Of a stretch of DNA of 64,000 nt, positions 36,424-64,000 are shown one piece after another. Both the position numbers and the translations under genes were made by a program. Source of the stretch: Chlorella sorokiniana (Eukaryota > Chlorophyta > Trebouxiophyceae > Chlorellales > Chlorellaceae); NCBI GenBank assembly GCA_025917655.1, contig CP084611.1:186001-250000 (forward strand), read 5' to 3'. The notes under the pieces were generated by a model that saw only the letters and a program-made list of their open reading frames with translations, was not told the DNA's origin and searched no databases. The stretch's first letter is position 1, and every line of letters begins with the position of its first letter.

Positions 36424-36448
36424 TGACTTGACTTGACTTGACTTGACT
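36424..36448. repeat. (ACTTG)n pentanucleotide repeat
   Basis: About five tandem ACTTG units. Confidence 0.9.
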
Positions 36449-36835: not shown

Positions 36836-36858
36836 ACAGCAGCAGCAGCAGCAGCAGT
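36836..36858. repeat. (CAG)n run
   Basis: About seven CAG units in AT-rich intergenic sequence, flanked by AACAACAG-type repeats. Confidence 0.9.
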
Positions 36859-37089
36859 GCTTGACATGGATATGATGTAATCTTCATTGTTGTTTCATTG
36901 CACATGTTATGAATTATGAATTTGTCAATTATAAACTCACTTCTTTATGTGCACAGATGCTTAGGGCAACATGAGCAGCCCATGGGCTCAGCCGGAGGAA
37001 GGCATACCACGCTGGCGGGTGGATTGAAAGTCATACAAAGGCTGGCTTATGATACTTAAATAGTCAGTCTAGTTGCTGCATCTCAAGTA

Positions 37090-38327: not shown

Positions 38328-38329
38328 CC

Positions 38330-38334
38330 TGTAA
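38330..38334 (+). terminator. TGTAA polyadenylation motif, GT15 gene
   Basis: Two bases after the stop codon; the 3' UTR would be very short. Confidence 0.45.
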
Positions 38335-38505
38335 TTCACTGAAAAGCTAACCCATTCAGAAGCATTGTTGTTGTAAGTCAATGGTAGAATTCCTCTGAGG
38401 GACGAAGAGTGGGTGGATTAGCGGTTGTCTTGTTCTTGAATTTCTGCTTTTCTCCACAGTTCGTTACATAGTTCGTTTTTTTCGAGCATAATAATTGAGC
38501 ATAAA

Positions 38506-39731: not shown

Positions 39732-40108
39732 TGTTTTTGAAAGATTAGCCACACTCTTATCACACTCTCATTTGAGCACTGCATTGGCTTATCAAATGGC
39801 ACACACGACTTGTTACAAAGTGCTTTAAAAACATGCAGGCATACCAAGCTTGAGCCTGCTTTGAGCCGCCCTTCTCTTGTTTGTCAGGAGCGCTCTGTTT
39901 GTTACACTTGTGATCTAACTGTGAATGGCATAGGCAAATACGCTTCTGTCAGCAGAGGCTGCCTATGATCCGTCACCGACTGTTTCTTCGTTCGAAGCTT
40001 CGTTTCCTTTGCTGCTGCCCCACCTGCATGGTAGAGGGGTGTGGAGGAGCTGGCTGAGGCAACGAGACCAACATACTGAAGTCCGTACTAGGCAGAGATA
40101 ACCTCTGC
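39732..40108. other. Convergent intergenic region, GT-like / GT32
   Basis: AT-rich. Minus-strand TGTAA signals (TTACA at 39902 and near 39813) could end the GT32 transcript. No gene was recognised. Confidence 0.5.
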
Positions 40109-41441: not shown

Positions 41442-41790
41442 TGCAAAAGATGCACAAGTCTTCAATTAATCATCTGTCAGCACGAGACTGGACAAGTTGC
41501 AACCTTTTTTTTAATCCACCCACCTTGGACATGGGCTGTACTGTGGAAAAGAGAAACTTCAATTATTCTGCATTCATTTTTTGGGTTCTTTTTACTTTTC
41601 ATACATTAACAGCAAAATAAGAGCATCGCTCAGTGTTATTATCCATGGACATTTATTTTTTATGGTGGGCGGGTTGGAGAGCCAAGGTTGCGCTGATGGC
41701 GTGCGGGTTGGGGTCATCAATTCTGAGGTCACTATAATCTCTTTCCATGCTGCAGCAGAGTCATTTATAAAATAGTGCATTGGGAGAGCG
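41442..41790. promoter_or_regulatory. Putative bidirectional promoter, GT32 / GT17
   Basis: These 349 bp of AT-rich sequence separate the divergent start codons of two glycosyltransferase genes. No specific element was identified. Confidence 0.45.
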
Positions 41791-43414
41791 ATGGCTAAAC
41801 TTGCACGGAACCGCCCTGGGCCAGCTTCGCTCTTCAGGTCCATATTGTTGCTTGTTTTGATAGTGGCTACACTCTTGTGCCTCATTCGAAGGCCGTCTTC
41901 CTCACAGCAGCTCCATGCAGCAGAGTACAAACGCTTGACATTTGCTGCAGACGGCATTGTGGAGACCACCATCCAATGCCCGCCTCGCCACCGACCGCCT
42001 GCGCTGCCACCACTACCTAGTCCCAGCCGCCCCTATCAGCTGGTCAATTTTTTCTCATTCAACAATGAGTTTGACATTCTGGAGATTCGTCTGAGTGAGT
42101 ATGCGGAAGTGGTGAACACTTTTGTCATCATGGAAGCCACTATTACGTTCTCAAACCTGACCAAGCCACTACGGCTGCCCCCGAGCTATGCTCGGAGCGT
42201 TATGCGCCGTTCCTGGACCGCATCCTGCATGTTGTGCTGGAACCCAGCCTGCGCAAGCCTGAGCACGATGCATGGGCATGGGAAGCGATTCACCGTGACA
42301 CGATGGTGGGTACTTCATTGCTTGCTGGCGGCGGCGGCCCCGGACACATACATCATGCAGAAAAGCCTTGCTTGAGTACATAGTTTCAGAACGCTTACCA
42401 TTGCCATCAACAGTTGCGTGTCTATCCCTTGATTTTTCAGGACGTAGTGGGGCGTCTTCTTGGCCTGCGCCCCAACGACATCCTCTTTTCCAGCGACGTC
42501 GACGAGCTGCCGTGGGCTGCCGCGGTGGCTGAGGGTGCCAACTCCGTCTTCAACTTCATGGCGCACAACGACTCTTTCTTGCCAGTGGTGGAGTTTGGGC
42601 TGGGCATGTACTACTTCAGGTGCATACAAGTGATGTACAGGGGTGTAACAGCAGCAGCAGCAGAAGTGGGAGTGGTGTTGCAGTCATGCTGCATGGCCCG
42701 CTTGCCCCCATGGATGAGATGCTTCCGACTTCTTCTTTTTGCAGTCTGCACCACCGCGTTCCCGACCCATGGTTGCACTACGCCAAGGCAGGCTTCAAGG
42801 ACTGCTTGCGCAGGCAGCGTTCACCTGACTAGTATCATGCAAAACACATGCCATCCTCTGAACCCTGCAGGTCTATCCATTTGCGGTGACAGAGCGGTGC
42901 AGCCTGAGTGCCATGCGCGTGCGTCACGATCAGTGCGAAGGCTGCACATATGCGCACGAATCAATTAAGGTGGTTCACTGGCACCCACGCATGTCTTCTG
43001 CCATGCCACTCCGGACTCTGTTTGCGTCTTTTTTACTGGTGTATGCAGACATTAAAATCTGTGCCAAATGCTGGCGTTCATGCCACTTACTTCTTTCCAT
43101 GGGAACTCCTAATGGAGGTCAGGGCAGCACAGGAAACCATGATTGCTTGGGTTGCGCTGATTTCTGTCTGCATACTGTCGCAGAAACTGAGGAGCTTCAG
43201 TCATGCGGATCATTATGAATGGGGCGCTGGGCAGACCGACGAAGAGCTGATCACAAGGGCAAGGAAGAATCTGAAAGAGAACAAAGGGTGGTTCAACGTA
43301 GATTTGCAATTTCGTGACCCAAGCCAGAATGATGAGTTGCATCCTTACACCCCGGACGCAAGAAAAGCACTGCTAGCCTTTTCAGAAAGGCTTTACAAAT
43401 CTCAAGAGTGTTGA
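41791..43414 (+). CDS. GT17-family (MGAT3-like, beta-1,4-GlcNAc-transferase) type II membrane protein
   Basis: The family transfers a beta-1,4-linked GlcNAc to N-glycan mannose in animals; related proteins occur in algae. A signal anchor (LFRSILLLVLIVATLLCLI) and Pro-rich stem precede the GT17 signature FFSFNNEFDILEIRLSEYAE, VVNTFVIMEATITFSNLTKP, LRPNDILFSSDVDELP (DXD) and FNFMAHNDSF. After introns come LHHRVPDPWLHYAKA, NAGVHATYFFPWELL, HADHYEWGAGQTDEELITR and NKGWFNVDLQF. These equal the family's order from NELDLLE to the GWH/WCF and final basic-helix blocks. One frame change near 42170 (KPL to ERYAPFLDRILHVVL) is unresolved. A TGTAA follows the stop at 43420. Confidence 0.85.
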
Positions 43415-43925
43415 TGCATTGTAAAGTGCATGATACAATGACGCAGGTTGTTATGTAACCGGACGTGCAATCAGGCGGACATGGGTTGAGTTCAGTGTGG
43501 TGAATGCCGTGCAAGTCAGCAACATGCAGGTGAGATGAGGCAAGTCAAGAGTGTGCATTTTAGGGCTGAAGGCCTGGACAACACGGAGTCAATCAGCTGT
43601 TGCTTGGCGTCTGAATGCAGCCGAGCTTGGCAGATAGAGCAGTTGTGCTAGCACTTGCTGCAACCTAAAAGGCGGTCTTGCTTGCCCAACAGTGTGCACT
43701 GGTCTCAATAAGAATTTCATGTGAGGGGCACTAACCTAGCAGGTGTTTATATAAGTAGATGCAGGGCCTCCAAAGTTTTCTGGCTAGGTGTGGGTTCTGT
43801 AGTTTGACCCCGGCCACGAGTGGGCAGGTTGAAGCCCCGACTTCTTTGCCAGGGCGAGCGGGGCAATCGGCCTGCAAAATAAACACACGATTGGCCTTTG
43901 GGTATAGGAAAGGCCTGACGCTGCC
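43415..43925. other. Intergenic region upstream of the Ser-Pro protein gene
   Basis: Probably holds the promoter and 5' UTR of the giant Ser-Pro gene. No other feature was recognised. Confidence 0.5.
43420..43424 (+). terminator. TGTAA polyadenylation motif, GT17 gene
   Basis: Six bases after the stop; a second TGTAA occurs near 43454. Confidence 0.5.
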
Positions 43926-46900
43926 ATGAGGCACCCATGGGTGCTCTGGCGGCTAGGGTCCCCGAGGGGTGCCGTCCGAGCAGTTCTGTTGCTTCTCCTC
44001 TTCTCTTCCCTTGCAACGTAAGTTGGACTGCGTTCCTGCATGTGAAATTGCATGGAAACCCTTAACAGGCATCGCAGATCCTGATGCACGTGCCGCCTCT
44101 AGGAGGGTGCAGCGGTGCCCAACCGCCTTCTTGACCTCTGCTTAAGCAGGGCCCAAACGCGGATCAAGGCAGGCAAGCCCTACCAAAATGGTGAGCCTTA
44201 GTTGGTTGTGGGCCATCAGATTGGCTTGATGGCATTCAGTGGCTTCCTTGTCTTGCTCTCCTTGGTACTCCCATCAGGGGTCCGGCGGCAGCTGAAGCAA
44301 GTTGAAGGCGGAGCTGAAGCATCAGCCCCATCCGATCCTGGCCCTTCAATCTCGGATGATACAGGAGGTGCTCAGCCTCAAGCCGTCTGTTCTTTTTGCC
44401 ACCTGCACCAGTAGACCCTTCAAACGACATGAACGCAAACTACAGCAGCCCTGCAGTTCTGACATGCAGCCATCTAATGGTGCAGGGGCCTCAACCGGAT
44501 CCTCTGGTTCAAGTGGGACTGGAGGATCAAGCAGCCTGCCCACTCAGCCGGCAGGAGGCAGCGGCGGTGGCTTGGCAGACCTTGGTAGTCAGTTCCAGGA
44601 GCCTGCAAATGCGGATCCAGTCGCCCCTGTGCGAACTGAGAACAAGGACGAGGCGGAGCCTGCAAGGGTGAGCGGGTCAAGTTCTTCAGTGGTGGCAGTC
44701 GAGGTTCGGTGCCACCGGAACCAGGCAAACCCCAACCCCTCTGCAGATGGTGAGCTGCGACGACCCCAGCATCTCATCACCCCGCTGCGGCGGCGGAAGC
44801 CCCAACTGCTTCTGCCCTTCCAGCAAGTACAGCGGCTGCGCCTCCTCCGGAAACAGGTGCCAGGTGTGTACCGGAACGTCTCTGCTGCCAAATTCAGGCC
44901 TCACTAGTGAGCGCTCCAAGTCGTTTGGTGCTGCACCATGACTGCGAGCATGCCTCTTGCAGCCCAAGACCTCCACTTCGACGCTCTCCAGCATCGCAAG
45001 TGGCGGCAGCGACAGCATGGACGTGTCGGGTGGCTCGGACGCATTTGCAGAGCTTGGCAGCACTGCTGGCGGAGATGTCCAGGTGAGCGAGTGGACCCAG
45101 CGCCGACCTAGTGTGCGAGGCATGCTTGAAAGCCTTCCTGGCGCGCTCCTGGTTCACCCGCTGCTTCACATCCCATCCGCACCGCCAGAGCACCGTGGAG
45201 GAAGTGCCATCAGACACCAAGGGCACCACCTTTGCTGACATATTCAGTGGCGGACAAGACTCTTTGCAGGTGCTTAGGATCCTATAGACACACACGAATA
45301 CTGCCAAATGGTTGCTCACAACATGTTCAGGCACCAACGCGTAGGGGGTAGTTCCTTCTTAACGTTTGGGGGCAGGCACGCAGCACTTGTTGGCCCGAGC
45401 GCTAAAACCGGCCTGAAAACCACACCCGCAGGAGGTTGATTCAACTGACGAGCTCGAAGAGACGCAGCAAGTGCTGCCAGAACCATCGGTTGCGCCCGAG
45501 TCTGACAAGCCGGTGGTGCAACCAGATCCGTCGCCGCCGCCTGTTGAACCATCTCCCACCATCCGGCCAGAACCCTCACCAGACACCTTCACTGCAGAGA
45601 TCTCGCCTTCACCAACCACTACTCAGTTCAAAGCAATCCCATCCCCGTCACCAGCATCACCTTCCCTGCCCACTCCATCCCCATCGCCAAACTCTGTCGC
45701 AGTGACGACAACACCGTCCCCCTCGCCCACACCAATCGCGTCGCCTTCACCTCAGAACCTCCCCACAGCGTCACCGTCCCCGAAGACTGTGCAGCCATCG
45801 CCCTCGCCAACTGCTAGCCCGCAAGCGTCGCCGGTACGCGGGTTCAGCTGGCTCGACATGCCGGGCTGTGTGGAAAAGGCGATCGTAGAATAAATGGGGG
45901 CGAAATGCTGCACCCTTTGCAGGAACTGTCTCCCTCCCCAGAAGTCCAGGCGTCTCCCTCACCATCACCTAAAACTGAGCCGTCACCGACGCCGTCTGTT
46001 GTGCCATCACCGTCGCCGATCCAACCATCCCCGAGCCCATCGCCTGCTGCGTCGCCATCACCGAGCCCCTCCCCTGCTGCATCACCCTCACCGAGCCCCT
46101 CGCCAAGTGCATCGCCGCAACCATCACCCTCACCATCGCCGTCACCTTCACCCTCCCCCTCGCCAAGCCCCTCGCCCTCTCCTTCACCCAGCCCATCACC
46201 CTCACCCTCACCCTCACCATCGCCCTCACCCAGCCCCAGCCCCAGCCCCAGCCCATCACCCTCACCCAGCCCCTCGCCCTCGCCGTCGCCGGTGCGCTGC
46301 CCGCTGCTCTTCTGCTTCGGCTGCTGCCAGTGCTGAGCGGGCGCTCGGTCGCGCTGGGACCCCAGCCTCACGTTGCGCCCCTGCTTCACATCCTGGTCCG
46401 CAGAGCCCCAGCCCCTCGCCGTCACCTTCACCCTCCCCCTCGCCAAGCCCCTCGTCCTCTCCTTCATCCAGCCCATCACCCTCACCCTCACCCTCACCAT
46501 CGCCCTCACCCAGCCCCAGCCCCAGCCCCAGCCCCAGCCCCAGCCCCAGCCCATCACCCTCACCCAGCCCGTCGCCCTCGCTGTCGCCGGTGCGCTGCCC
46601 GCTGCTGCGCTGCCTCGTCTGCTGCCAGTGCTGAGCTGGCGCTTGCAGACGCGCTGGCAGCCTCACGTTGCGCCCCTGCTTCACCTCCTGGTCCGCAGAG
46701 CCCCAGCCCCTCGCCGTCACCTTCACCCTCCCCCTCGCCAAGCCCCTCGCCCTCTCCTTCACCCAGCCCATCACCCTCACCCTCACCCTCACCATCGCCC
46801 TCACCCAGCCCCAGCCCCAGCCCCAGCCCCAGCCCCAGCCCATCACCCTCACCCAGCCCGTCGCCCTCGCCGTCGCCGGTGCGCTGCCCGCTGCTGCGCT

Positions 46901-49900
46901 GCCTCGTCTGCTGCCAGTGCTGAGCTGGCGCTTGCAGACGCGCTGGCAGCCTCACGTTGCGCCCCTGCTTCACCTCCTGGTCCGCAGAGCCCCAGCCCCT
47001 CGCCGTCACCTTCACCCTCCCCCTCGCCAAGCCCCTCGCCCTCTCCTTCACCCAGCACATCACCATCACCCTCACCCTCACCCTCACCATCGCCCTCACC
47101 CAGCCCCAGCCCCAGCCCCAGCCCCAGCCCATCACCCTCACCCAGCCCGTCGCCCTCGCCGTCGCCGGTGCGCTGCCCGCTGCTGCGCTGCCTCGTCTGC
47201 TGCCAGTGCTGAGCTGGCGCTTGCAGACGCGCTGGCAGCCTCACGTTGCGCCCCTGCTTCACCTCCTGGTCCGCAGAGCCCCAGCCCCTCGCCGTCACCT
47301 TCACCCTCCCCCTCGCCAAGCCCCTCGCCCTCTCCTTCACCCAGCCCATCACCATCACCCTCACCCTCACCCTCACCATCGCCCTCACCCAGCCCCAGCC
47401 CCAGCCCCAGCCCCAGCCCCAGCCCATCACCCTCACCCAGCCCGTCGCCCTCGCTGTCGCCGGTGCGCTGCCCGCTGCTGCGCTGCCTCGTCTGCATCCA
47501 GTGCTGAGCTGGCGCTTGCAGACGCGCTGGCAGCCTCACGTTGCGCCCCTGCTTCACCTCCTGGTCCGCAGAGCCCCAGCCCCTCGCCGTCACCTTCACC
47601 CTCCCCCTCGCCAAGCCCCTCGCCCTCTCCTTCACGCAGCCCATCACCATCACCCTCACCCTCACCCTCACCATCGCCCTCACCCAGCCCCAGCCCCAGC
47701 CCCAGCCCCAGCCCCAGCCCATCACCCTCACCCAGGCCGTCGCCCTCTCCTTCACCCAGCCCATCACCCTCACCCTCACCCTCACCATCGCCCTCACCCA
47801 GCCCCAGCCCCAGCCCCAGCCCCAGCCCCAGCCCATCACCCTCACCCAGCCCGTCGCCCTCGCCGTCGCCGGTGCGCTGCCCGCTGCTGCGCTGCCTCGT
47901 CTGCTGCCAGTGCTGAGCTGGCGCTTGCAGACGCGCTGGCAGCCTCACGTTGCGCCCCTGCTTCACCTCCTGGTCCGCAGAGCCCCAGCCCCTCGCCGTC
48001 ACCTTCACCCTCCCCCTCGCCAAGCCCCTCGCCCTCTCCTTCACCCAGCCCATCACCATCACCCTCACCCTCACCATCGCCCTCACCCAGCCCCAGCCCC
48101 AGCCCCAGCCCCAGCCCCAGCCCATCACCCTCACCCAGCCCGTCGCCCTCGCCGTCGCCGGTGCGCTGCCCGCTGCTGCGCTGCCTCGTCTGCTGCCAGT
48201 GCTGAGCTGGCGCTTGCAGACGCGCTGGCAGCCTCACGTTGCGCCCCCTGCTTCACCTCCTGGTCCGCAGAGCCCCAGCCCCTCGCCGTCACCTTCACCC
48301 TCCCCCTCGCCAAGCCCCTCGCCCTCTCCTTCACCCAGCCCATCACCATCACCCTCACCCTCACCCTCACCATCGCCCTCACCCAGCCCCAGCCCCAGCC
48401 CCAGCCCCAGCCCCAGCCCATCACCCTCACCCAGCCCGTCGCCCTCTCCTTCACCCAGCCCATCACCCTCACCCTCACCCTCACCATCGCCCTCACCCAG
48501 CCCCAGCCCCAGCCCCAGCCCCAGCCCCAGCCCATCACCCTCGCCCAGCCCGTCGCCCTCGCCGTCGCCGGTGCGCTGCCCGCTGCTGCGCTGCCTCGTC
48601 TGCTGCCAGTGCTGAGCTGGCGCTTGCAGACGCGCTGGCAGCCTCACGTTGCACCCCTGCTTCACCTCCTGGTCCGCAGAGCCCCAGCCCCTCGCCGTCA
48701 CCTTCACCCTCCCCCTCGCCAAGCCCCTCGCCCTCTCCTTCACCCAGCCCATCACCATCACCCTCACCCTCACCCTCACCATCGCCCTCACCCAGCCCCA
48801 GCCCCAGCCCCAGCCCCAGCCCCAGCCCATCACCCTCACCCAGCCCGTCGCCCTCGCCGTCGCCGGTGCGCTGCCCGCTGCTGCGCTGCCTCGTCTGCTG
48901 CCAGTGCTGAGCTGGCGCTTGCAGACGCGCTGGCAGCCTCACGTTGCGCCCCTGCTTCACCTCCTGGTCCGCAGAGCCCCAGCCCCTCGCCGTCACCTTC
49001 ACCCTCCCCCTCGCCAAGCCCCTCGCCCTCTCCTTCACCCAGCCCATCACCATCACCCTCACCCTCACCCTCACCATCGCCCTCACCCAGCCCCAGCCCC
49101 AGCCCCAGCCCCAGCCCATCACCCTCACCCAGCCCGTCGCCCTCGCCGTCGCCGGTGCGCTGCCCGCTGCTGCGCTGGCTCGGCTGCTGCCAGTGCTGAG
49201 CTGGCGCTTGCAGACGCGCTGGCAGCCTCACGTTGCGCCCCTGCTTCACCTCCTGGTCCGCAGAGCCCCAGCCCCTCGCCGTCACCTTCACCCTCCCCCT
49301 CGCCAAGCCCCTCGCCCTCTCCTTCACCCAGCCCATCACCATCACCCTCACCCTCACCCTCACCATCGCCCTCACCCAGCCCCAGCCCCAGCCCCAGCCC
49401 CAGCCCATCACCCTCACCCAGCCCGTCGCCCTCGCCGTCGCCGGTGCGCTGCCCGCTGCTGCGCTGCCTCGTCTGCATCCAGTGCTGAGCTGGCGGTTGC
49501 AGACGCGCTGGCAGCCTCACGTTGCGCCCTGCTTCACCTCCTGGTCCGCAGAGCCCCAGCCCCTCGCCGTCACCTTCACCCTCCCCCTCGCCAAGCCCCT
49601 CGCCCTCTCCTTCACCCAGCCCATCACCATCACCCTCACCCTCACCCTCACCATCGCCCTCACCCAGCCCCAGCCCCAGCCCCAGCCCCAGCCCATCACC
49701 CTCACCCAGCCCGTCGCCCTCGCCGTCGCCGGTGCGCTGCCCGCTGCTGCGCTGCCTCGTCTGCTGCCAGTGCTGAGCTGGCGCTTGCAGACGCGCTGGC
49801 AGCCTCACGTTGCGCCCCTGCTTCACCTCCTGGTCCGCAGAGCCCCAGCCCCTCGCCGTCACCTTCACCCTCCCCCTCGCCAAGCCCCTCGCCCTCTCCT

Positions 49901-52900
49901 TCACCCAGCCCATCACCATCACCCTCACCCTCACCCTCACCATCGCCCTCACCCAGCCCCAGCCCCAGCCCCAGCCCCAGCCCCAGCCCATCACCCTCAC
50001 CCAGCCCCTCGCCCTCGCCGTCGCCGGTGCGCTGCCCGCTGCTGCGCTGCCTCGTCTGCTGCCAGTGCTGAGCTGGCGCTTGCAGACGCGCTGGCAGCCT
50101 CACGTTGCGCCCCTGCTTCACCTCCTGGTCCGCAGAGCCCCAGCCCCTCGCCGTCACCTTCACCCTCCCCCTCGCCAAGCCCCTCGCCCTCTCCTTCACC
50201 CAGCCCATCACCCTCACCCTCACCCTCACCATCGCCCTCACCCAGCCCCAGCCCCAGCCCCAGCCCCAGCCCCAGCCCATCACCCTCACCCAGCCCGTCG
50301 CCCTCGCCGTCGCCGGTGCGCTGCCCGCTGCTGCGCTGGCTCGGCTGCTGCCAGTGCTGAGCTGGCGCTTGCAGACGCGCTGGCAGCCTCACGTTGCGCC
50401 CCTGCTTCACCTCCTGGTCCGCAGAGCCCCAGCCCCTCGCCGTCACCTTCACCCTCCCCCTCGCCAAGCCCCTCGCCCTCTCCTTCACCCAGCCCATCAC
50501 CATCACCCTCACCCTCACCCTCACCATCGCCCTCACCCAGCCCCAGCCCCAGCCCCAGCCCCAGCCCCAGCCCATCACCCTCACCCAGCCCGTCGCCCTC
50601 GCTGTCGCCGGTGCGCTGCCCGCTGCTGCGCTGGCTCGTCTGCATCCAGTGCTGAGCTGGCGCTTGCAGACGCGCTGGCAGCCTCACGTTGCGCCCCTGC
50701 TTCACCTCCTGGTCCGCAGAGCCCCAGCCCCTCGCCGTCACCTTCACCCTCCCCCTCGCCAAGTTCCTCGCCCTCTCCTTCACCCAGCCCATCACCATCA
50801 CCCTCACCCTCACCCTCACCATCGCCCTCACCCAGCCCCAGCCCCAGCCCCAGCCCCAGCCCATCACCCTCACCCAGCCCGTCGCCCTCGCCGTCGCCGG
50901 TGCGCTGCCCGCTGCTGCGCTGGCTCGTCTGCTGCCAGTGCTGAGCTGGCGCTTGCAGACAGCTGGCAGCCTCACGTTGCGCCCCTGCTTCACCTCCTGG
51001 TCCGCAGAGCCCCAGCCCCTCGCCGTCACCTTCACCCTCCCCCTCGCCAAGCCCCTCGCCCTCTCCTTCACCCAGCCCATCACCATCACCCTCACCCTCA
51101 CCCTCACCATCGCCCTCACCCAGCCCCAGCCCCAGCCCCAGCCCCAGCCCCAGCCCATCACCCTCACCCAGCCCCTCGCCCTCGCTGTCGCCGGTGCGCT
51201 GCCCGCTGCTGCGCTGCCTCGTCTGCATCCAGTGCTGAGCTGGCGCTTGCAGACGCGCTGGCAGCCTCACGTTGCGCCCCTGCTTCACCTCCTGGTCCGC
51301 AGAGCCCCAGCCCCTCGCCGTCACCTTCACCCTCCCCCTCGCCAAGCCCCTCGCCCTCTCCTTCACCCAGCCCATCACCATCACCCTCACCCTCACCATC
51401 GCCCTCACCCAGCCCCAGCCCCAGCCCCAGCCCCAGCCCCAGCCCCAGCCCATCACCCTCACCCAGCCCGTCGCCCTCTCCTTCACCCAGCCCATCACCA
51501 TCACCCTCACCCTCACCCTCACCATCGCCCTCACCCAGCCCCAGCCCCAGCCCCAGCCCCAGCCCCAGCCCATCACCCTCACCCAGCCCGTCGCCCTCGC
51601 CGTCGCCGGTGCGCTGCCCGCTGCTGCGCTGCCTCGTCTGCTGCCAGTGCTGAGCTGGCGCTTGCAGACGCGCTGGCAGCCTCACGTTGCGCCCCTGCTT
51701 CACCTCCTGGTCCGCAGAGCCCCAGCCCCTCGCCGTCACCTTCACCCTCCCCCTCGCCAAGCCCCTCGCCCTCTCCTTCACCCAGCCCATCACCCTCACC
51801 CTCACCCTCACCATCGCCCTCACCCAGCCCCAGCCCCAGCCCCAGCCCCAGCCCCAGCCCATCACCCTCACCCAGCCCGTCGCCCTCTCCTTCACCCAGC
51901 CCATCACCATCACCCTCACCCTCACCATCGCCCTCACCCAGCCCCAGCCCCAGCCCATCACCCTCACCCAGCCCGTCGCCCTCGCCGTCGCCGGTGCGCT
52001 GCCCGCTGCTGCGCTGGCTCGTCTGCTGCCAGTGCTGAGCTGGCGCTTGCAGACGCGCTGGCAGCCTCACGTTGCGCCCCTGCTTCACCTCCTGGTCCGC
52101 AGAGCCCCAGCCCCTCGCCGTCACCTTCACCCTCCCCCTCGCCAAGCCCCTCGCCCTCTCCTTCACCCAGCCCATCACCATCACCCTCACCCTCACCCTC
52201 ACCATCGCCCTCACCCAGCCCCAGCCCGAGCCCCAGCCCCAGCCCATCACCCTCACCCAGCCCGTCGCCCTCGCCGTCGCCGGTGCGCTGCCCGCTGCTG
52301 CGCTGCCTCGTCTGCTGCCAGTGCTGAGCTGGCGGTTGCAGACGCGCTGGCAGCCTCACGTTGCGCCCCTGCTTCACCTCCTGGTCCGCAGAGCCCCAGC
52401 CCCTCGCCGTCACCTTCACCCTCCCCCTCGCCAAGCCCCTCGCCCTCTCCTTCACCCAGCTCATCACCATCACCCTCACCCTCACCATCGCCCTCACCCA
52501 GGCCCAGCCCCAGCCCCAGCCCCAGCCCCAGCCCATCACCCTCACCCAGCCCGTCGCCCTCGCCGTCGCCGGTGCGCTGCCCGCTGCTGCGCTGGCTCGG
52601 CTGCTGCCAGTGCTGAGCTGGCGCTTGCAGACGCGCTGGCACCCCAGCCTCACGTTGCGCCCCTGCTTCACCTCCTGGTCCGCAGAGCCCCAGCCCCTCG
52701 CCGTCACCTTCACCCTCCCCCTCGCCAAGCCCCGCCCTCTCCTTCACCCAGCCCATCACCATCACCCTCACCCTCACCCTCACCATCGCCCTCACCCAGC
52801 CCCAGCCCCAGCCCCAGCCCCAGCCCCAGCCCATCACCCTCACCCAGCCCGTCGCCCTCGCCGTCGCCGGTGCGCTGCCCGCTGCTGCGCTGCCTCGTCT

Positions 52901-55900
52901 GCTGCCAGTGCTGAGCTGGCGCTTGCAGACGCGCTGGCAGCCTCACGTTGCGCCCCTGCTTCACCTCCTGGTCCGCAGAGCCCCAGCCCCTCGCCGTCAC
53001 CTTCACCCTCCCCCTCGCCAAGCCCCTCGCCCTCTCCTTCACCCAGCCCATCACCATCACCCTCACCCTCACCCTCACCATCGCCCTCACCCAGCCCCAG
53101 CCCCAGCCCCAGCCCCAGCCCATCACCCTCACCCAGCCCGTCGCCCTCGCCGTCGCCGGTGCGCTGCCCGCTGCTGCGCTGCCTCGTCTGCTGCCAGTGC
53201 TGAGCTGGCGCTTGCAGACGCGCTGGCAGCCTCACGTTGCGCCCCTGCTTCACCTCCTGGTCCGCAGAGCCCCAGCCCCTCGCCGTCACCTTCACCCTCC
53301 CCCTCGCCAAGCCCCTCGCCCTCTCCTTCACCCAGCCCATCACCATCACCCTCACCCTCACCCTCACCATCGCCCTCACCCAGCCCCAGCCCCAGCCCCA
53401 GCCCCAGCCCATCACCCTCACCCAGCCCGTCGCCCTCTCCTTCACCCAGCCCATCACCCTCACCCTCACCCTCACCATCGCCCTCACCCAGCCCCAGCCC
53501 CAGCCCCAGCCCCAGCCCCAGCCCCAGCCCATCACCCTCACCCAGCCCGTCGCCCTCGCCGTCGCCGGTGCGCTGCCCGCTGCTGCGCTGCCTCGTCTGC
53601 TGCCAGTGCTGAGCTGGCGCTTGCAGACGCGCTGGCAGCCTCACGTTGCGCCCCTGCTTCACCTCCTGGTCCGCAGAGCCCCAGCCCCTCGCCGTCACCT
53701 TCACCCTCCCCCTCGCCAAGCCCCTCGCCCTCTCCTTCACCCAGCCCATCACCATCACCCTCACCCTCACCCTCACCATCGCCCTCACCCAGCCCCAGCC
53801 CCAGCCCCAGCCCCAGCCCCAGCCCATCACCCTCACCCAGCCCGTCGCCCTCGCCGTCGCCGGTGCGCTGCCCGCTGCTGCGCTGCCTCGTCTGCTGCCA
53901 GTGCTGAGCTGGCGCTTGCAGACGCGCTGGCAGCCTCACGTTGCGCCCCTGTTTCACCTCCTGGTCCGCAGAGCCCCAGCCCCTCGCCGTCACCTTCACC
54001 CTCCCCCTCGCCAAGCCCCTCGCCCTCTCCTTCACCCAGCCCATCACCATCACCATCACCCTCACCCTCACCCTCACCATCGCCCTCACCCAGCCCCAGC
54101 CCCAGCCCCAGCCCCAGCCCCAGCCCATCACCCTCACCCAGCCCGTCGCCCTCGCCGTCGCCGGTGCGCTGCCCGCTGCTGCGCTGCCTCGTCTGCTGCC
54201 AGTGCTGAGCTGGCGCTTGCAGACGCGCTGGCAGCCTCACGTTGCGCCCTGCTTCACCTCCTGGTCCGCAGAGCCCCAGCCCCTCGCCGTCACCTTCACC
54301 CTCCCCCTCGCCAAGCCCCTCGCCCTCTCCTTCACCCAGCCCATCACCATCACCCTCACCCTCACCATCGCCCTCACCCAGCCCCAGCCCCAGCCCCAGC
54401 CCCAGCCCCAGCCCATCACCCTCACCCAGCCCGTCGCCCTCGCCGTCGCCGGTGCGCTGCCCGCTGCTGCGCTGCCTCGTCTGCTGCCAGTGCTGAGCTG
54501 GCGCTTGCAGACGCGCTGGCACCCCAGCCTCACGTTGCGCCCCTGCTTCACCTCCTGGTCCGCAGAGCCCCAGCCCCTCGCCGTCACCTTCACCCTCCCC
54601 CTCGCCAAGCCCCTCGCCCTCTCCTTCACCCAGCCCATCACCATCACCCTCACCCTCACCCTCACCATCGCCCTCACCCAGCCCCAGCCCCAGCCCCAGC
54701 CCCAGCCCCAGCCCATCACCCTCACCCAGCCCGTCGCCCTCTCCTTCACCCAGCCCATCACCCTCACCCTCACCCTCACCATCGCCCTCACCCAGCCCCA
54801 GCCCCAGCCCCAGCCCCAGCCCCAGCCCCAGCCCATCACCCTCACCCAGCCCGTCGCCCTCGCCGTCGCCGGTGCGCTGCCCGCTGCTGCGCTGCCTCGT
54901 CTGCTGCCAGTGCTGAGCTGGCGCTTGCAGACGCGCTGGCAGCCTCACGTTGCGCCCCTGCTTCACCTCCTGGTCCGCAGAGCCCCAGCCCCTCGCCGTC
55001 ACCTTCACCCTCCCCCTCGCCAAGCCCCTCGCCCCCTATTTCACCCAGCCCATCACCATCACCCTCACCCTCACCCTCACCATCGCCCTCACCCAGCCCC
55101 AGCCCCAGCCCCAGCCCCAGCCCCAGCCCATCACCCTCACCCAGCCCGTCGCCCTCGCCGTCGCCGGTGCGCTGCCCGCTGCTGCGCTGCCTCGTCTGCT
55201 GCCAGTGCTGAGCTGGCGCTTGCAGACGCGCTGGCAGCCTCACGTTGCGCCCCTGCTTCACATCCGGGTCCGCAGAGCCCCAGCCCCTCGCCGTCACCTT
55301 CACCCTCCCCCTCGCCAAGCCCCTCGCCCTCTCCTTCACCCAGCCCATCACCATCACCCTCACCCTCACCCTCACCATCGCCCTCACCCAGCCCCAGCCC
55401 CAGCCCCAGCCCCAGCCCCAGCCCATCACCCTCACCCAGCCCGTCGCCCTCGCCGTCGCCGGTGCGCTGCCCGCTGCTGCGCTGGCTCGTCTGCTGCCAG
55501 TGCTGAGCTGGCGCTTGCAGACGCGCTGGCAGCCTCACGTTGCGCCCCTGCTTCACCTCCTGGTCCGCAGAGCCCCAGCCCCTCGCCGTCACCTTCACCC
55601 TCCCCCTCGCCAAGCCCCTCGCCCTCTCCTTCACCCAGCCCATCACCCTCACCCTCACCCTCACCATCGCCCTCACCCAGCCCCAGCCCCAGCCCCAGCC
55701 CCAGCCCCAGCCCATCACCCTCACCCAGCCCGTCGCCCTCGCCGTCGCCGGTGCGCTGCCCGCTGCTGCGCTGCCTCGTCTGCTGCCAGTGCTGAGCTGG
55801 CGCTTGCAGACGCGCTGGCAGCCTCACGTTGCGCCCCTGCTTCACATCCGGGTCCGCAGAGCCAGCCCCTCGCCGTCACCTTCACCCTCCACCTCGCCAA

Positions 55901-58900
55901 GCCCCTCGCCCTCTCCTTCACCCAGCCCATCACCATCACCCTCACCCTCACCATCGCCCTCACCCAGCCCCAGCCCCAGCCCCAGCCCCAGCCCCAGCCC
56001 ATCACCCTCACCCAGCCCGTCGCCCTCGCCGTCGCCGGTGCGCTGCCCGCTGCTGCGCTGCCTCGTCTGCTGCCAGTGCTGAGCTGGCGCTTGCAGACGC
56101 GCTGGCAGCCTCACGTTGCGCCCCTGCTTCACCTCCTGGTCCGCAGAGCCCCAGCCCCTCGCCGTCACCTTCACCCTCCCCCTCGCCAAGCCCCTCGCCC
56201 TCTCCTTCACCCAGCCCATCACCCTCACCCTCACCCTCACCATCGCCCTCACCCAGCCCCAGCCCCAGCCCCAGCCCCAGCCCCAGCCCATCACCCTCAC
56301 CCAGCCCGTCGCCCTCGCCGTCGCCGGGTGCGCTGCCCGCTGCTGCGCTGCCTCGTCTGCTGCCAGTGCTGAGCTGGCGCTTGCAGACGCGCTGGCAGCC
56401 TCACGTTGCGCCCCTGCTTCACCTCCGGGTCCGCAGAGCCCCAGCCCCTCGCCGTCACCTTCACCCTCCCCCTCGCCAAGCCCCTCGCCCTCTCCTTCAC
56501 CCAGCCCATCACCATCACCCTCACCCTCACCATCGCCCTCACCCAGCCCCAGCCCCAGCCCCAGCCCCAGCCCCAGCCCATCACCCTCACCCAGCCCGTC
56601 GCCCTCGCCGTCGCCGGTGCGCTGCCCGCTGCTGCGCTGCCTCGTCTGCTGCCAGTGCTGAGCTGGCGCTTGCAGACGCGCTGGCAGCCTCACGTTGCGC
56701 CCCTGCTTCACATCCGGGTCCGCAGAGCCCCAGCCCTCGCCGTCACCTTCACCCTCCCCCTCGCCAAGCCCCTCGCCCTCTCCTTCACCCAGCCCATCAC
56801 CATCACCCTCACCCTCACCATCGCCCTCACCCAGCCCCAGCCCCAGCCCCAGCCCCAGCCCCAGCCCATCACCCTCACCCAGCCCGTCGCCCTCGCCGTC
56901 GCCGGTGCGCTGCCCGCTGCTGCGCTGCCTCGTCTGCTGCCAGTGCTGAGCTGGCGCTTGCAGACGCGCTGGCAGCCTCACGTTGCGCCCCTGCTTCACC
57001 TCCTGGTCCGCAGAGCCCCAGCCCCTCGCCGTCACCTTCACCCTCCACCTCGCCAAGCCCCTCGCCCTCTCCTTCACCCAGCCCATCACCATCACCCTCA
57101 CCCTCACCATCGCCCTCACCCAGCCCCAGCCCCAGCCCCAGCCCCAGCCCCAGCCCATCACCCTCACCCAGCCCGTCGCCCTCGCCGTCGCCGGTGCGCT
57201 GCCCGCTGCTGCGCTGCCTCGTCTGCTGCCAGTGCTGAGCTGGCGCTTGCAGACGCGCTGGCAGCCTCACGTTGCGCCCCTGCTTCACCTCCTGGTCCGC
57301 AGAGCCCCAGCCCCTCGCCGTCACCTTCACCCTCCCCCTCGCCAAGCCCCTCGCCCTCTCCTTCACCCAGCCCATCACCATCACCCTCACCCTCACCATC
57401 GCCCTCACCCAGCCCCAGCCCCAGCCCCAGCCCCAGCCCCAGCCCATCACCCTCACCCAGCCCGTCGCCATCGCCGTCGCCGGTGCGCTGCCCGCTGCTG
57501 CGCTGCCTCGTCTGCTGCCAGTGCTGAGCTGGCGCTTGCAGACGCGCTGGCAGCCTCACGTTGCGCCCCTGCTTCACATCCTGGTCCGCAGAGCCCCAGC
57601 CCCTCGCCGTCACCTTCACCCTCCCCCTCGCCAAGCCCCTCGCCCTCTCCTTCACCCAGCCCATCACCATCACCCTCACCCTCACCATCGCCCTCACCCA
57701 GCCCCAGCCCCAGCCCCAGCCCCAGCCCCAGCCCATCATCACCCTCACCCAGCCCGTCGCCCTCGCCGTCGCCGGTGCGCTGCCCGCTGCTGCGCTGCCT
57801 CGTCTGCTGCCAGTGCTGAGCTGGCGCTTGCAGACGCTGCGCTGGCAGCCTCACGTTGCGCCCCTGCTTCACCTCCTGGTCCGCAGAGCCCCAGCCCCTC
57901 GCCGTCACCTTCACCCTCCCCCTCGCCAAGCCCCTCGCCCTCTCCTTCACCCAGCCCATCACCATCACCCTCACCCTCACCATCGCCCTCACCCAGCCCC
58001 AGCCCCAGCCCCAGCCCCAGCCCCAGCCCATCACCCTCACCCAGCCCGTCGCCCTCGCCGTCGCCGGTGCGCTGCCCGCTGCTGCGCTGCCTCGTCTGCT
58101 GCCAGTGCTGAGCTGGCGCTTGCAGACGCGCTGGCAGCCTCACGTTGCGCCCCTGCTTCACCTCCTGGTCAGCAGAGCCCCAGCCCCTCGCCGTCACCTT
58201 CACCCTCCCCCTCGCCAAGCCCCTCGCCCTCTCCTTCACCCAGCACATCACCATCACCCTCACCCTCACCCTCACCATCGCCCTCACCCAGCCCCAGCCC
58301 CAGCCCCAGCCCCAGCCCATCACCCTCACCCAGCCCGTCGCCCTCGCCGTCGCCGGTGCGCTGCCCGCTGCTGCGCTGCCTCGTCTGCTGCCAGTGCTGA
58401 GCTGGCGCTTGCAGACGCGCTGGCAGCCTCACGTTGCGCCCCTGCTTCACCTCCTGGTCAGCAGAGCCCCAGCCCCTCGCCGTCACCTTCACCCTCCCCC
58501 TCGCCAAGCCCCTCGCCCTCTCCTTCACCCAGCCCATCACCATCACCCTCACCCTCACCATCGCCCTCACCCAGCCCCAGCCCCAGCCCCAGCCCCAGCC
58601 CCAGCCCATCACCCTCACCCAGCCCGTCGCCCTCGCCGTCGCCGGTGCGCTGCCCGCTGCTGCGCTGCCTCGTCTGCTGCCAGTGCTGAGCTGGCGCTTG
58701 CAGACGCGCTGGCAGCCTCACGTTGCGCCCTGCTTCACCTCCTGGTCCGCAGAGCCCCAGCCCCTCGCCGTCACCTTCACCCTCCCCCTCGCCAAGCCCC
58801 TCGCCCTCTCCTTCACCCAGCCCATCACCATCACCCTCACCCTCACCATCGCCCTCACCCAGCCCCAGCCCCAGCCCCAGCCCCAGCCCCAGCCCATCAC

Positions 58901-61900
58901 CCTCACCCAGCCCGTCGCCCTCGCCGTCGCCGGTGCGCTGCCCGCTGCTGCGCTGGCCTCGTCTGCTGCCAGTGCTGAGCTGGCGCTTGCAGACGCGCTG
59001 GCAGCCTCACGTTGCGCCCTGCTTCACCTCCGGGTCCGCAGAGCCCCAGCCCCTCGCCGTCACCTTCACCCTCCCCCTCGCCAAGCCCCTCGCCCTCTCC
59101 TTCACCCAGCCCATCACCATCACCCTCACCCTCACCCTCACCATCGCCCTCACCCAGCCCCAGCCCCAGCCCCAGCCCCAGCCCCAGCCCATCACCCTCA
59201 CCCAGCCCGTCGCCCTCGCCGTCGCCGGTGCGCTGCCCGCTGCTGCGCTGCCTCGTCTGCTGCCAGTGCTGAGCTGGCGCTTGCAGACGCGCTGGCAGCC
59301 TCACGTTGCGCCCCTGCTTCACCTCCTGGTCCGCAGAGCCCCAGCCCCTCGCCGTCACCTTCACCCTCCCCCTCGCCAAGCCCCTCGCCCTCTCCTTCAC
59401 CCAGCACATCACCATCACCCTCACCCTCACCCTCACCATCGCCCTCACCCAGCCCCAGCCCCAGCCCCAGCCCCAGCCCATCACCCTCACCCAGCCCGTC
59501 GCCCTCGCCGTCGCCGGTGCGCTGCCCGCTGCTGCGCTGCCTCGTCTGCTGCCAGTGCTGAGCTGGCGCTTGCAGACGCGCTGGCAGCCTCACGTTGCGC
59601 CCCTGCTTCACCTCCTGGTCCGCAGAGCCCCAGCCCCTCGCCGTCACCTTCACCCTCCCCCTCGCCAAGCCCCTCGCCCTCTCCTTCACCCAGCACATCA
59701 CCATCACCCTCACCCTCACCCTCACCATCGCCCTCACCCAGCCCCAGCCCCAGCCCCAGCCCCAGCCCATCACCCTCACCCAGCCCGTCGCCCTCGCCGT
59801 CGCCGGTGCGCTGCCCGCTGCTGCGCTGCCTCGTCTGCTGCCAGTGCTGAGCTGGCGCTTGCAGACGCGCTGGCAGCCTCACGTTGCGCCCCTGCTTCAC
59901 CTCCTGGTCCGCAGAGCCCCAGCCCCTCGCCGTCACCTTCACCCTCCCCCTCGCCAAGCCCCTCGCCCTCTCCTTCACCCAGCACATCACCATCACCCTC
60001 ACCCTCACCCTCACCATCGCCCTCACCCAGCCCCAGCCCCAGCCCCAGCCCCAGCCCCAGCCCATCACCCTCACCCAGCCCGTCGCCCTCGCCGTCGCCG
60101 GTGCGCTGCCCGCTGCTGCGCTGGCTCGTCTGCTGCCAGTGCTGAGCTGGCGCTTGCAGACGCGCTGGCAGCCTCACGTTGCGCCCCTGCTTCACCTCCT
60201 GGTCCGCAGAGCCCCAGCCCCTCGCCGTCACCTTCACCCTCCCCCTCGCCAAGCCCCTCGCCCTCTCCTTCACCCAGCCCATCACCATCACCCTCACCCT
60301 CACCCTCACCATCGCCCTCACCCAGCCCCAGCCCCAGCCCCAGCCCCAGCCCCAGCCCATCACCCTCACCCAGCCCGTCGCCCTCGCCGTCGCCGGTGCG
60401 CTGCCCGCTGCTGCGCTGCCTCGTCTGCTGCCAGTGCTGAGCTGGCGCTTGCAGACGCGCGCTGGCAGCCTCACGTTGCGCCCTGCTTCACCTCCTGGTC
60501 CGCAGAGCCCCAGCCCCTCGCCGTCACCTTCACCCTCCCCCTCGCCAAGCCCCTCGCCCTCTCCTTCACCCAGCACATCACCATCACCCTCACCCTCACC
60601 CTCACCATCGCCCTCACCCAGCCCCAGCCCCAGCCCCAGCCCCAGCCCATCACCCTCACCCAGCCCGTCGCCCTCGCCGTCGCCGGTGCGCTGCCCGCTG
60701 CTGCGCTGCCTCGTCTGCTGCCAGTGCTGAGCTGGCGCTTGCAGACGCGCTGGCAGCCTCACGTTGCGCCCCTGCTTCACCTCCTGGTCCGCAGAGCCCC
60801 AGCCCCTCGCCGTCACCTTCACCCTCCACCTCGCCAAGCCCCTCGCCCTCTCCTTCACCCAGCCCATCACCATCACCCTCACCCTCACCATCGCCCTCAC
60901 CCAGCCCCAGCCCCAGCCCCAGCCCCAGCCCCAGCCCATCACCCTCACCCAGCCCGTCGCCCTCGCCGTCGCCGGTGCGCTGCCCGCTGCTGCGCTGCCT
61001 CGTCTGCTGCCAGTGCTGAGCTGGCGCTTGCAGACGCGCTGGCAGCCTCACGTTGCGCCCCTGCTTCACCTCCTGGTCCGCAGAGCCCCAGCCCCTCGCC
61101 GTCACCTTCACCCTCCCCCTCGCCAAGCCCCTCGCCCTCTCCTTCACCCAGCCCATCACCATCACCCTCACCCTCACCCTCACCATCGCCCTCACCCAGC
61201 CCCAGACCCAGCCCCAGCCCCAGCCCCAGCCCATCACCCTCACCCAGCCCGTCGCCCTCGCCGTCGCCGGTGCGCTGCCCGCTGCTGCGCTGGCTCGTCT
61301 GCTGCCAGTGCTGAGCTGGCGCTTGCAGACGCGCTGGCAGCCTCACGTTGCGCCCCTGCTTCACATCCTGGTCCGCAGAGCCCCAGCCCCTCGCCGTCAC
61401 CTTCACCCTCCCCCTCGCCAAGCCCCTCGCCCTCTCCTTCACCCAGCCCATCACCATCACCCTCACCCTCACCATCGCCCTCACCCAGCCCCAGACCCAG
61501 CCCCAGCCCCAGCCCCAGCCCATCACCCTCACCCAGCCCGTCGCCCTCGCCGTCGCCGGTGCGCTGCCCGCTGCTGCGCTGCCTCGTCTGCTGCCAGTGC
61601 TGAGCTGGCGCTTGCAGACGCGCTGGCAGCCTCACGTTGCGCCCCTGCTTCACCTCCTGGTCCGCAGAGCCCCAGCCCCTCGCCGTCACCTTCACCCTCC
61701 CCCTCGCCAAGCCCCTCGCCCTCTCCTTCACCCAGCACATCACCATCACCCTCACCCTCACCCTCACCATCGCCCTCACCCAGCCCCAGCCCCAGCCCCA
61801 GCCCCAGCCCATCACCCTCACCCAGCCCGTCGCCCTCGCCGTCGCCGGTGCGCTGCCCGCTGCTGCGCTGCCTCGTCTGCTGCCAGTGCTGAGCTGGCGC

Positions 61901-64000
61901 TTGCAGACGCGCTGGCAGCCTCACGTTGCGCCCCTGCTTCACCTCCTGGTCCGCAGAGCCCCAGCCCCTCGCCGTCACCTTCACCCTCCACCTCGCCAAG
62001 CCCCTCGCCCTCTCCTTCACCCAGCCCATCACCATCACCCTCACCCTCACCATCGCCCTCACCCAGCCCCAGCCCCAGCCCCAGCCCCAGCCCCAGCCCA
62101 TCACCCTCACCCAGCCCGTCGCCCTCGCCGTCGCCGGTGCGCTGCCCGCTGCTGCGCTGCCTCGTCTGCTGCCAGTGCTGAGCTGGCGCTTGCAGACGCG
62201 CTGGCAGCCTCACGTTGCGCCCCTGCTTCACCTCCTGGTCCGCAGAGCCCCAGCCCCTCGCCGTCACCTTCACCCTCCACCTCGCCAAGCCCCTCGCCCT
62301 CTCCTTCACCCAGCCCATCACCATCACCCTCACCCTCACCATCGCCCTCACCCAGCCCCAGCCCCAGCCCCAGCCCCAGCCCCAGCCCATCACCCTCACC
62401 CAGCCCGTCGCCCTCGCCGTCGCCGGTGCGCTGCCCGCTGCTGCGCTGCCTCGTCTGCTGCCAGTGCTGAGCTGGCGCTTGCAGACGCGCTGGCAGCCTC
62501 ACGTTGCGCCCCTGCTTCACCTCCTGGTCCGCAGAGCCCCAGCCCCTCGCCGTCACCTTCACCCTCCCCCTCGCCAAGCCCCTCGCCCTCTCCTTCACCC
62601 AGCCCATCACCCTCACCCTCACCCTCACCATCGCCCTCACCCAGCCCCAGCCCCAGCCCCAGCCCCAGCCCCAGCCCATCACCCTCACCCAGCCCGTCGC
62701 CCTCGCCGTCGCCGGTGCGCTGCCCGCTGCTGCGCTGCCTCGTCTGCTGCCAGTGCTGAGCTGGCGCTTGCAGACGCGCTGGCAGCCTCACGTTGCGCCC
62801 CTGCTTCACCTCCTGGTCCGCAGAGCCCCAGCCCCTCGCCGTCACCTTCACCCTCCCCCTCGCCAAGCCCCTCGCCCTCTCCTTCACCCAGCACATCACC
62901 ATCACCCTCACCCTCACCCTCACCATCGCCCTCACCCAGCCCCAGCCCCAGCCCCAGCCCCAGCCCATCACCCTCACCCAGCCCGTCGCCCTCGCCGTCG
63001 CCGGTGCGCTGCCCGCTGCTGCGCTGCCTCGTCTGCTGCCAGTGCTGAGCTGGCGCTTGCAGACGCGCTGGCAGCCTCACGTTGCGCCCCTGCTTCACCT
63101 CCTGGTCCGCAGAGCCCCAGCCCCTCGCCGTCACCTTCACCCTCCCCCTCGCCAAGCCCCTCGCCCTCTCCTTCACCCAGCCCATCACCATCACCCTCAC
63201 CCTCACCATCGCCCTCACCCAGCCCCAGCCCCAGCCCCAGCCCCAGCCCCAGCCCATCACCCTCACCCAGCCCGTCGCCCTCGCCGTCGCCGGTGCGCTG
63301 CCCGCTGCTGCGCTGCCTCGTCTGCTGCCAGTGCTGAGCTGGCGCTTGCAGACGCGCTGGCAGCCTCACGTTGCGCCCCTGCTTCACCTCCTGGTCCGCA
63401 GAGCCCCAGCCCCTCGCCGTCACCTTCACCCTCCCCCTCGCCAAGCCCCTCGCCCTCTCCTTCACCCAGCCCATCACCATCACCCTCACCCTCACCCTCA
63501 CCATCGCCCTCACCCAGCCCCAGACCCAGCCCCAGCCCCAGCCCCAGCCCATCACCCTCACCCAGCCCGTCGCCCTCGCCGTCGCCGGTGCGCTGCCCGC
63601 TGCTGCGCTGGCTCGTCTGCTGCCAGTGCTGAGCTGGCGCTTGCAGACGCGCTGGCAGCCTCACGTTGCGCCCCTGCTTCACCTCCTGGTCCGCAGAGCC
63701 CCAGCCCCTCGCCGTCACCTTCACCCTCCCCCTCGCCAAGCCCCTCGCCCTCTCCTTCACCCAGCCCATCACCATCACCCTCACCCTCACCCTCACCATC
63801 GCCCTCACCCAGCCCCAGCCCCAGCCCCAGCCCCAGCCCCAGCCCATCACCCTCACCCAGCCCGTCGCCCTCGCCGCCCCCTGCCGAGAACTGCAAGAAG
63901 TTTTTCCACGGTCGCTGCATCTTCTGCCACCACGGATGGATCTTGAACAAGAAGACGGGTGTCTGTGTCAAGGCAAGGGCTGCCATCCTTTCTTGCAGCC
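43926..64000 (+). CDS. Giant secreted Ser-Pro-rich (HRGP-type) wall glycoprotein, partial, more than 60 exons
   Basis: A predicted extracellular hydroxyproline-rich glycoprotein that continues past the window. Exon 1 (43926-44017) and exon 2 (44150-44190) encode a signal peptide ([16 protein letters not shown]) and a short basic stretch. Exon 44278-44367 continues in phase with [18 protein letters not shown] Cys-rich exon (from 44747; [18 protein letters not shown]) and acidic/Ser exons near 44960-45082 and 45190-45270 follow. Exon 45432-45833 ([19 protein letters not shown], then mixed SP, TP, PP) and exon 45923-46291 are phase 0. Next come about 58 array exons, each almost pure (Ser-Pro)n. 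The last runs in frame into [14 protein letters not shown], a second Cys module ending [10 protein letters not shown] blocks are classic prolyl-hydroxylation and arabinogalactan or extensin-type glycosylation sites. Neither Cys module clearly matches the pherophorin domain, so no family name is given. Confidence 0.8.
46292..63696 (+). repeat. Tandem array of ~58 exon-intron modules (~289 bp unit) encoding (Ser-Pro)n
   Basis: Each unit is one intron of about 109 nt (GTGCGCTGCCCG...GGTCCGCAG) followed by one exon of about 180 nt starting AGCCCCAGCCCC and ending TCGCCG. All intron-exon borders are phase 0. Unit spacing is mostly 289 or 295 bp, the difference being one SP dipeptide codon pair. 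About six longer units (385-420 bp) have an internally extended exon without a second intron. The in-frame TGA inside the intron recurs at about 46336, 46634, 46923 ... 63337, 63632, which gives the count of 58. The + strand is strongly C-rich, the minus strand G-rich. Confidence 0.93.
57483..57774 (+). repeat. Representative array unit (intron 57483-57591 plus exon 57592-57774)
   Basis: The intron is 109 nt with donor CCG|GTGCGC and acceptor GGTCCGCAG|AGC. The exon is 183 nt and encodes 61 residues, Ser-Pro repeats with one extra Ser from a TCATCA insertion. It is given as an example of unit structure and variation. Confidence 0.85.
63868..63973 (+). other. C-terminal Cys-rich module following the Ser-Pro array
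   Basis: The Ser-Pro frame passes directly into [33 protein letters not shown] with four cysteines. The C-x2-C/G-W-x-L-x-x-K-T-G-x-C spacing recalls EGF- or furin-like modules, which is only a resemblance. A possible GC donor (AAG|GCAAGG) follows; the gene runs out of the window. Confidence 0.65.

Follow-up and report, generated by a model that had tools for sequence, protein, structure and literature searches.

A tandem array of near-identical introns and Ser-Pro exons in a putative green-algal wall-type glycoprotein gene

In the literature considered here, introns that recur in near-identical form within one gene, together with the exons between them, are described for spiders, for one genus of ciliates, for a fungus and for humans. 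According to the accessible part of the study on Argiope MaSp2, near-identical small introns (mean similarity 97.6%, range 94.3-99.7%) lie there between exons of similar size, and its authors propose that the repeated introns aid unequal crossing-over and keep the exons homogeneous, and that they may also clear mutations caused by slippage (PMC9779670). The leucine-rich repeat (LRR) genes of Tetrahymena, in the accessible text on them, contain arrays of exons of exactly 90 bp, with 1 to 51 of these per gene in T. thermophila (PMC6564038). Here, we describe a locus that would extend this architecture to a putative green-algal wall-type glycoprotein. It lies in a window of 64,000 bases (bases 186001-250000 of a 5.25-Mb contig, in a genome of 38.8 Mb and 15 contigs), in which 58 introns and 57 internal exons coding for Ser-Pro dipeptides stand in register, so that complete exons and complete introns follow one another in tandem within one predicted gene. 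We consider it likely that this is one gene, probably green-algal, for a giant secreted hydroxyproline-rich glycoprotein, in which a unit of intron plus exon was expanded and homogenised by unequal recombination. The gene model was built from reading frame and splice signals in the sequence.

Structure of the array and of the gene around it

The first-pass annotation of the window had reported an array of about 58 modules with near-identical GT-AG introns; its span was recovered exactly, and the introns number 58. The introns measure 109 nt in 48 cases, and 108 (4), 110 (2), 112 (2) or 114 nt (2) in the others. All are in phase 0; the donor string GTGCGCTGCCCGCTGCT is identical in 58/58, while the acceptor string reads GGTCCGCAG in 56 and GGTCAGCAG in the remaining 2. 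They comprise 23 distinct sequences, the commonest of which accounts for 27 of the 58 copies. The 289-bp period is also recovered by Tandem Repeats Finder (TRF), with a score of 17,607 over 51904-63876 that is far beyond chance, and TRF places the start of the array at 46136, within the 3' part of exon 7. If the introns were retained, 57 of the 58 would bring a TGA into the Ser-Pro frame, and the array could therefore be translated through only if they are spliced out.

The internal exons (n = 57) are 180 nt long in 31 cases and 186 nt in 14, with further lengths of 300 (3), 306 (2), 276, 192 and 183 nt (1 each); the remaining four, of 184, 178, 181 and 179 nt, are not multiples of three. The unit by which the array has grown consists of a 109-nt intron in phase 0 and a Ser-Pro exon of 60 residues. 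The earlier description of every repeat as a complete intron with a complete exon fits most of the array well, but not the six of 57 exons that are long doubles; likewise, phase 0 was borne out and 53 of 57 exons are multiples of three, but the claim that the frame is kept at any copy number does not extend to the four exons that, as assembled, break it. Among the 53 in-frame exons, 29 encode pure (SP)n, and the only other residues are T (12), R (6), L (4) and I (1); the X-Pro dipeptides are clustered. In plants, clustered non-contiguous Hyp, such as Ser-Hyp, is a preferred site of arabinogalactan addition, as stated in the accessible part of the source (PMC6523594).

Our main argument that the array codes for protein comes from its flanks: the Ser-Pro frame, the phase and the splice signals are continuous between the array and the unique exons on both sides. 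The model comprises seven exons upstream of the array and three after it, and ends 518 bases past the window (Table 1). When exons 1-7 are joined, they give a 470-aa translation without stops, the frame of which continues into the array; its N-terminus is hydrophobic and, by eye and without a predictor, resembles a secretion signal. The earlier suggestion of a wall glycoprotein agrees with the predicted sequence, which looks like that of a wall-type, putatively secreted glycoprotein. The eight introns outside the array, at 79 to 162 nt, are close in size to those of the array; seven are in phase 0 and one in phase 1. A GC donor occurs in a single intron (after the Cys-rich exon, at 63973), and the donors of the remaining 65 are GT.

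Array intron 1 was also aligned with the eight non-array introns. Its local alignment with upstream intron 4 (45083-45188) scored above 300/300 shuffles, through a short stretch, which hints at a possible common origin or at a shared branch-site sequence; downstream intron 2 was borderline (p 0.047), and the other 6 did not stand out.

Table 1. Features of the predicted gene and its surroundings, in window coordinates
Feature	Position	Strand	Remarks
Exon 1	44229-44367	+	Proposed ATG at 44229; signal-peptide-like start (by eye); open frame into exon 2 across a phase-1 intron
Exons 2-6, overall	44486-45833	+	Ser/acid-rich, then Cys-rich module, then Pro/Ser-rich; introns 79-162 nt
Exon 2	44486-44667	+	
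Exon 3	44747-44863	+	
Exon 4	44963-45082	+	
Exon 5	45189-45269	+	
Exon 6	45432-45833	+	
Exon 7	45923-46291	+	Ser-Pro-rich; 3' end resembles a unit exon
Array	46292-63696	+	Basic unit of 289 bp; holds 58 introns with 57 internal exons
Array intron 1	46292-46403	+	112 nt; of all copies the farthest from consensus, with 16 alignment differences
Span with double exons	47572-54871	+	Six long double exons sharing one junction
Double exon, array number 5	47572-47871	+	
Double exon, array number 7	48271-48570	+	
Double exon, array number 17	51303-51608	+	
Double exon, array number 18	51718-51993	+	
Double exon, array number 23	53268-53567	+	
Double exon, array number 27	54566-54871	+	
Span with frame-breaking exons	52686-56904	+	Four exons
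Frame-breaking exon, array number 21	52686-52869	+	184 nt
Frame-breaking exon, array number 31	55860-56037	+	178 nt
Frame-breaking exon, array number 32	56147-56327	+	181 nt
Frame-breaking exon, array number 34	56726-56904	+	179 nt
First post-array exon	63697-63972	+	Ser-Pro in frame into Cys-rich motif; then GC-AG intron
Start of GC-AG intron	63973-64000	+	After Cys-rich exon
Last two exons (beyond window)	64104-64292, 64414-64518	+	Stop codon ends at 64518
Polysaccharide deacetylase piece	35224-35850		
Gly_transf_sug glycosyltransferase piece	40375-40809	minus	
GT17-family glycosyltransferase piece	41776-42375		

Homogenisation and growth of the array

The mean pairwise nucleotide diversity was 1.16% for introns 2-58 (1.42% when intron 1 is included) and 1.01% for the 51 of 57 exons of standard size, and with gaps counted, introns 2-58 share 98.1% pairwise identity. 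Considering that introns and exons are about equally homogeneous, the copying appears to have acted on the whole DNA unit. The likeness between units peaks at a distance of four, where 0 of 1,000 permutations gave a value as low; a distance of two has p 0.028 (30 lags were compared, with edit distances capped at 15). This spacing suggests copying in blocks of about four units. Together with the 27 identical introns, this agrees with the earlier proposal of a recent expansion. The most uniform introns are numbers 39-58, which show on average 0.65 differences from the intron consensus, compared with 1.17 for introns 2-19 and 1.47 for introns 20-38. The most diverged intron, intron 1, forms the edge of the array, and the site of its 5-nt insertion is common to introns 21 and 27 only.

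All six double exons carry an identical 28-base junction, in one of them with one mismatch. In 4/6, this junction maps to an 8-base stretch that occurs both at the end of one exon and in the middle of the exon after it, while exons 18 and 23 fit such a simple junction model less well (18 and 13 mismatches, respectively). The two halves differ from each other in 6/6 double exons, and one half is identical to a single-exon type in 6/6. Since the halves differ, a fusion of two different units is favoured, and the simplest reading is that two units were fused, with loss of the intron, by one recombination between Ser-Pro codons of adjacent units, after which the product was copied to six places. 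For the same reason, a 120-nt duplication inside one exon, which would leave the same junction, is less likely.

We propose that the array arose when mispairing of two Ser-Pro minisatellite exons duplicated the intron lying between them, and that the units were then multiplied and homogenised in blocks by unequal crossing-over or gene conversion. The locus shows multiplication of an intron along with its exon unit within one sequence and, should the double exons be fusions, intron loss as well. How recombination within a gene adds and removes introns can thereby be measured by comparing strains.

The predicted protein most likely has about 4,350 residues; the array contributes about 3,690 of them, nearly all Ser-Pro. 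If the gene is expressed and spliced as its frame and splice signals suggest, the introns would be removed and each exon would add about 18.6 nm to an extended polyproline-II rod, the helix of which rises by about 3.1 angstrom per residue (PMC11015965, accessible text). The array would in that case encode a rod of about 1.1 micrometres, and because each exon adds a fixed increment, copy number would set rod length. The prolines of the rod would probably be hydroxylated and O-glycosylated. The genome has 9 matches to PF13640 (2OG-Fe(II) oxygenase), 6 of them over the cut-off, in a family that is wider than the prolyl hydroxylases. More tentatively, and with considerable doubt, we suggest that the repeated intron may have been kept as a register mark, such that a unique 109-nt spacer every 180 nt steers recombination to whole units. 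Were this true, the spacer would prevent the scrambling of length and frame that slippage of pure hexamers would cause, the alga would tune a micrometre-scale rod in 18.6-nm steps with its frame kept, and the double exons would be by-products of exchange inside Ser-Pro tracts.

Reading frame, selection and alternative explanations

Several observations weigh against a single functional glycoprotein gene. The Ser-Pro hexamers of the array are stop-free in all three frames, so that the lack of stops in the exons provides no evidence for coding, and the frame-safe exon lengths are partly trivial because the repeat itself is 6 bases long. The length changes in the first three frame-breaking exons sum to zero, and the fourth is uncompensated, leaving a net frame of 2 mod 3. 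As assembled, the Ser-Pro frame is the one in which only 23/57 exons are entered, against 34/57 in a different frame, and the translation stops at residue 4243, in the wrong frame, inside the post-array exon, with the C-terminal part misread. The first-pass annotation had estimated well over 1,500 Ser-Pro dipeptides; this is exceeded when the Ser-Pro frame is chosen separately for each exon (1,805 in the 57 exons, about 1,915 in the whole protein), but the translation as assembled contains only 781. The ratio of nonsynonymous to synonymous polymorphism among copies (pN/pS) was 1.02 (22 and 9 cells; 8 and 5 distinct changes), as calculated on 46/57 exons after excluding the six doubles, the four frame-breaking exons and array exon 1, with one double change left out. 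Amino-acid changes are thus as frequent as silent ones, and no constraint is visible on the repeated sequence. Lengths that are not multiples of three were not significantly rarer per unit in exons (4/57) than in introns (8/58; p 0.36), while a test per base, in which the number of intron changes was set by hand to 9 and is an undercount, gave p 0.019. Finally, the joined N- and C-terminal query had no match in the protein database at E<=0.001, and the C-terminal tail had a single match there at E 4, judged to be chance, although candidates were limited to 0.55-1.75 times the query length and giant homologues may consequently be missed; in Pfam, the unique N- and C-terminal parts had no match above the cut-off.

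Taken at face value, the frame-breaking exons, the wrong-frame stop and the pN/pS value would suit an array that is real and was recently coding, but sits in a decaying allele, in which the frameshifts are true, no full protein is made in this strain and the array has become a neutral satellite. We regard this as unlikely, yet deserving of consideration. Of the four frame-breaking indels, three lengthen or shorten a run of C or G, and length errors in homopolymer runs are common in long-read assemblies; the indels may be either assembly errors or real damage, which look alike in an assembly. In addition, the flanking unique exons are stop-free and joined in phase. C-run lengths have changed in 2 of 522 runs in exons and in 6 of 58 copies of the intron run (Fisher p 1.9e-5), which hints at selection for frame, but the value is inflated by shared descent, given that several of the intron changes may go back to a single event that was inherited.

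The copy number is that of the assembly, and with units about 99% alike, the true array might be smaller or larger than assembled. We consider such an artefact improbable. The 57 intron-plus-exon units include as many as 44 distinct ones, and no exact repeat in the 17.4 kb is longer than 789 bp, making an artefact built from a few exact units unlikely; the four-unit periodicity and the unique flanks on both sides, within one 5.25-Mb contig, argue in the same direction. A non-coding satellite that merely happens to sit between Ser-Pro exons would account for the pN/pS of 1.02 and for hexamers whose openness in all frames proves nothing, but it would leave the continuity with the unique exons on both sides to coincidence, and we hold it to be very unlikely. 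Least credible of all is a mobile introner-like element inserted repeatedly into an existing long Ser-Pro exon, which would explain near-identical introns in one gene and has a precedent in the massive recent intron invasion reported in the accessible text on the green alga Micromonas (PMC3879977), but which we rejected, as all 40 scored intron matches (of 58 candidates, the array itself holding 58 introns) lie inside the array and repeated insertion would not give introns at a constant position of the 289-bp unit with exons about equally homogeneous.

Related sequences, neighbourhood and comparison with known systems

Among the scored matches, the gene is present in one copy in the 38.8-Mb genome. 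Exons 3-6 found only themselves there, plus one weak match judged to be chance (E 0.06), as did the first two post-array exons (E 1.42). A search of solved structures gave 4 weak matches (E 0.023 to 0.84), likewise judged to be chance, and the intron core had 0 matches among viral and prokaryote contigs, as expected for an alga. Other Ser-Pro-rich sequences do occur: the genome gave 77 such matches among the 150 scored of 193 candidates, with 10 loci outside the array. Eight of these 10 were examined with TRF, and an array of exon-intron size was absent from 8/8, their periods reaching at most 162 bp over no more than 0.8 kb. One locus on contig C6 (L024) has a 63-bp repeat at 2892-3693 (12.7 copies with 96% matches), and a further Ser-Pro-rich match falls within the 9-kb stretch that contains it; a second locus on C6 (L029) has a 6-bp repeat of 61 copies at 4113-4480 and also holds a (Thr-Pro)n-coding stretch. 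For the pherophorins, which we take to be linked to DUF3707 (PF12499), the PF12499 family was unmatched in this genome, but also in all 14 control genomes.

Directly upstream of the gene, the stretch 34000-44000 is low in GC, with 51-55% per 2-kb bin compared with 64-73% in the preceding bins. This stretch holds pieces of a deacetylase and two glycosyltransferases (Table 1) and could represent a cluster of genes for sugar modification or else an island with a different origin. Its GT17 match is the only one found in the genome (3 candidates scored), and the polysaccharide deacetylase, when used as a query, found only itself. The array gene is adjoined by an IM30/VIPP1-like gene, and the next gene downstream of it is an Hsp33 homologue. 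The IM30/VIPP1-like neighbour, a genome rich in introns and in GC, and the presence of proteins of Ser-Pro type together suggest that the source is a green alga.

As to how unusual the array is, the earlier judgement needs qualification: so many near-identical introns in register are real and striking, but have published parallels in MaSp2, Tetrahymena and human LPA KIV-2. An algal exon-intron array was not found in the literature, as covered by open-licence PubMed Central text, and as far as that literature shows, both the type of protein and the lineage are new to this class.

Among green-algal proteins, Chlamydomonas MST3 is likewise giant and rich in hydroxyproline; it has 8,572 residues, and its 42 repeats are proposed to determine how long the filament is, a precedent for a length set by repeat number (PMC11015965). 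Its repeats, however, are of the P13/P11(XXP)3 type with divergent linkers rather than Ser-Pro, and the word "intron" appears nowhere in the accessible text. An MST3-type mastigoneme axial protein was rejected as a candidate for the array gene, because the repeat there is P13YnP11(XXP)3 and the unit here is (SP)30 (PMC11015965). A designed (SP)32 module expressed in tobacco shares the dipeptide repeat, whereas the array gene would hold about 1,900 natural units with glycosylation predicted (PMC6523594); if made, such a natural protein would be far longer than the designed modules.

By analogy, the array gene works like MaSp2, the Tetrahymena 90-bp-exon genes and LPA KIV-2. The Tetrahymena genes share tandem exons of fixed size and introns of one phase, for which their authors invoke unequal crossing-over, possibly with retrotransposition, but they number in the thousands, use phase 2, are linked to a retrotransposon and encode LRR proteins, whereas here there is one gene, in phase 0, with no paralogue found (PMC6564038). 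Human LPA KIV-2 is also an intragenic repeat of whole exons and whole introns, with 1 to >40 copies; it differs in having a 5.5-kb unit of two exons and two introns, in encoding a folded kringle and in having its variation measured between persons (PMC4378929). Cryptococcus CNN00420 similarly gained identical introns by expansion of an intron-containing repeat, although only six of them (PMC2395259). Argiope MaSp2 and flagelliform spidroin resemble our locus in that one giant extracellular repetitive protein is encoded between near-identical introns, with a similarity of 97.6% there and 98.1% here; these genes encode silk in spiders, some with two alternating intron types, while the array described here has one type in 58 copies (PMC9779670).

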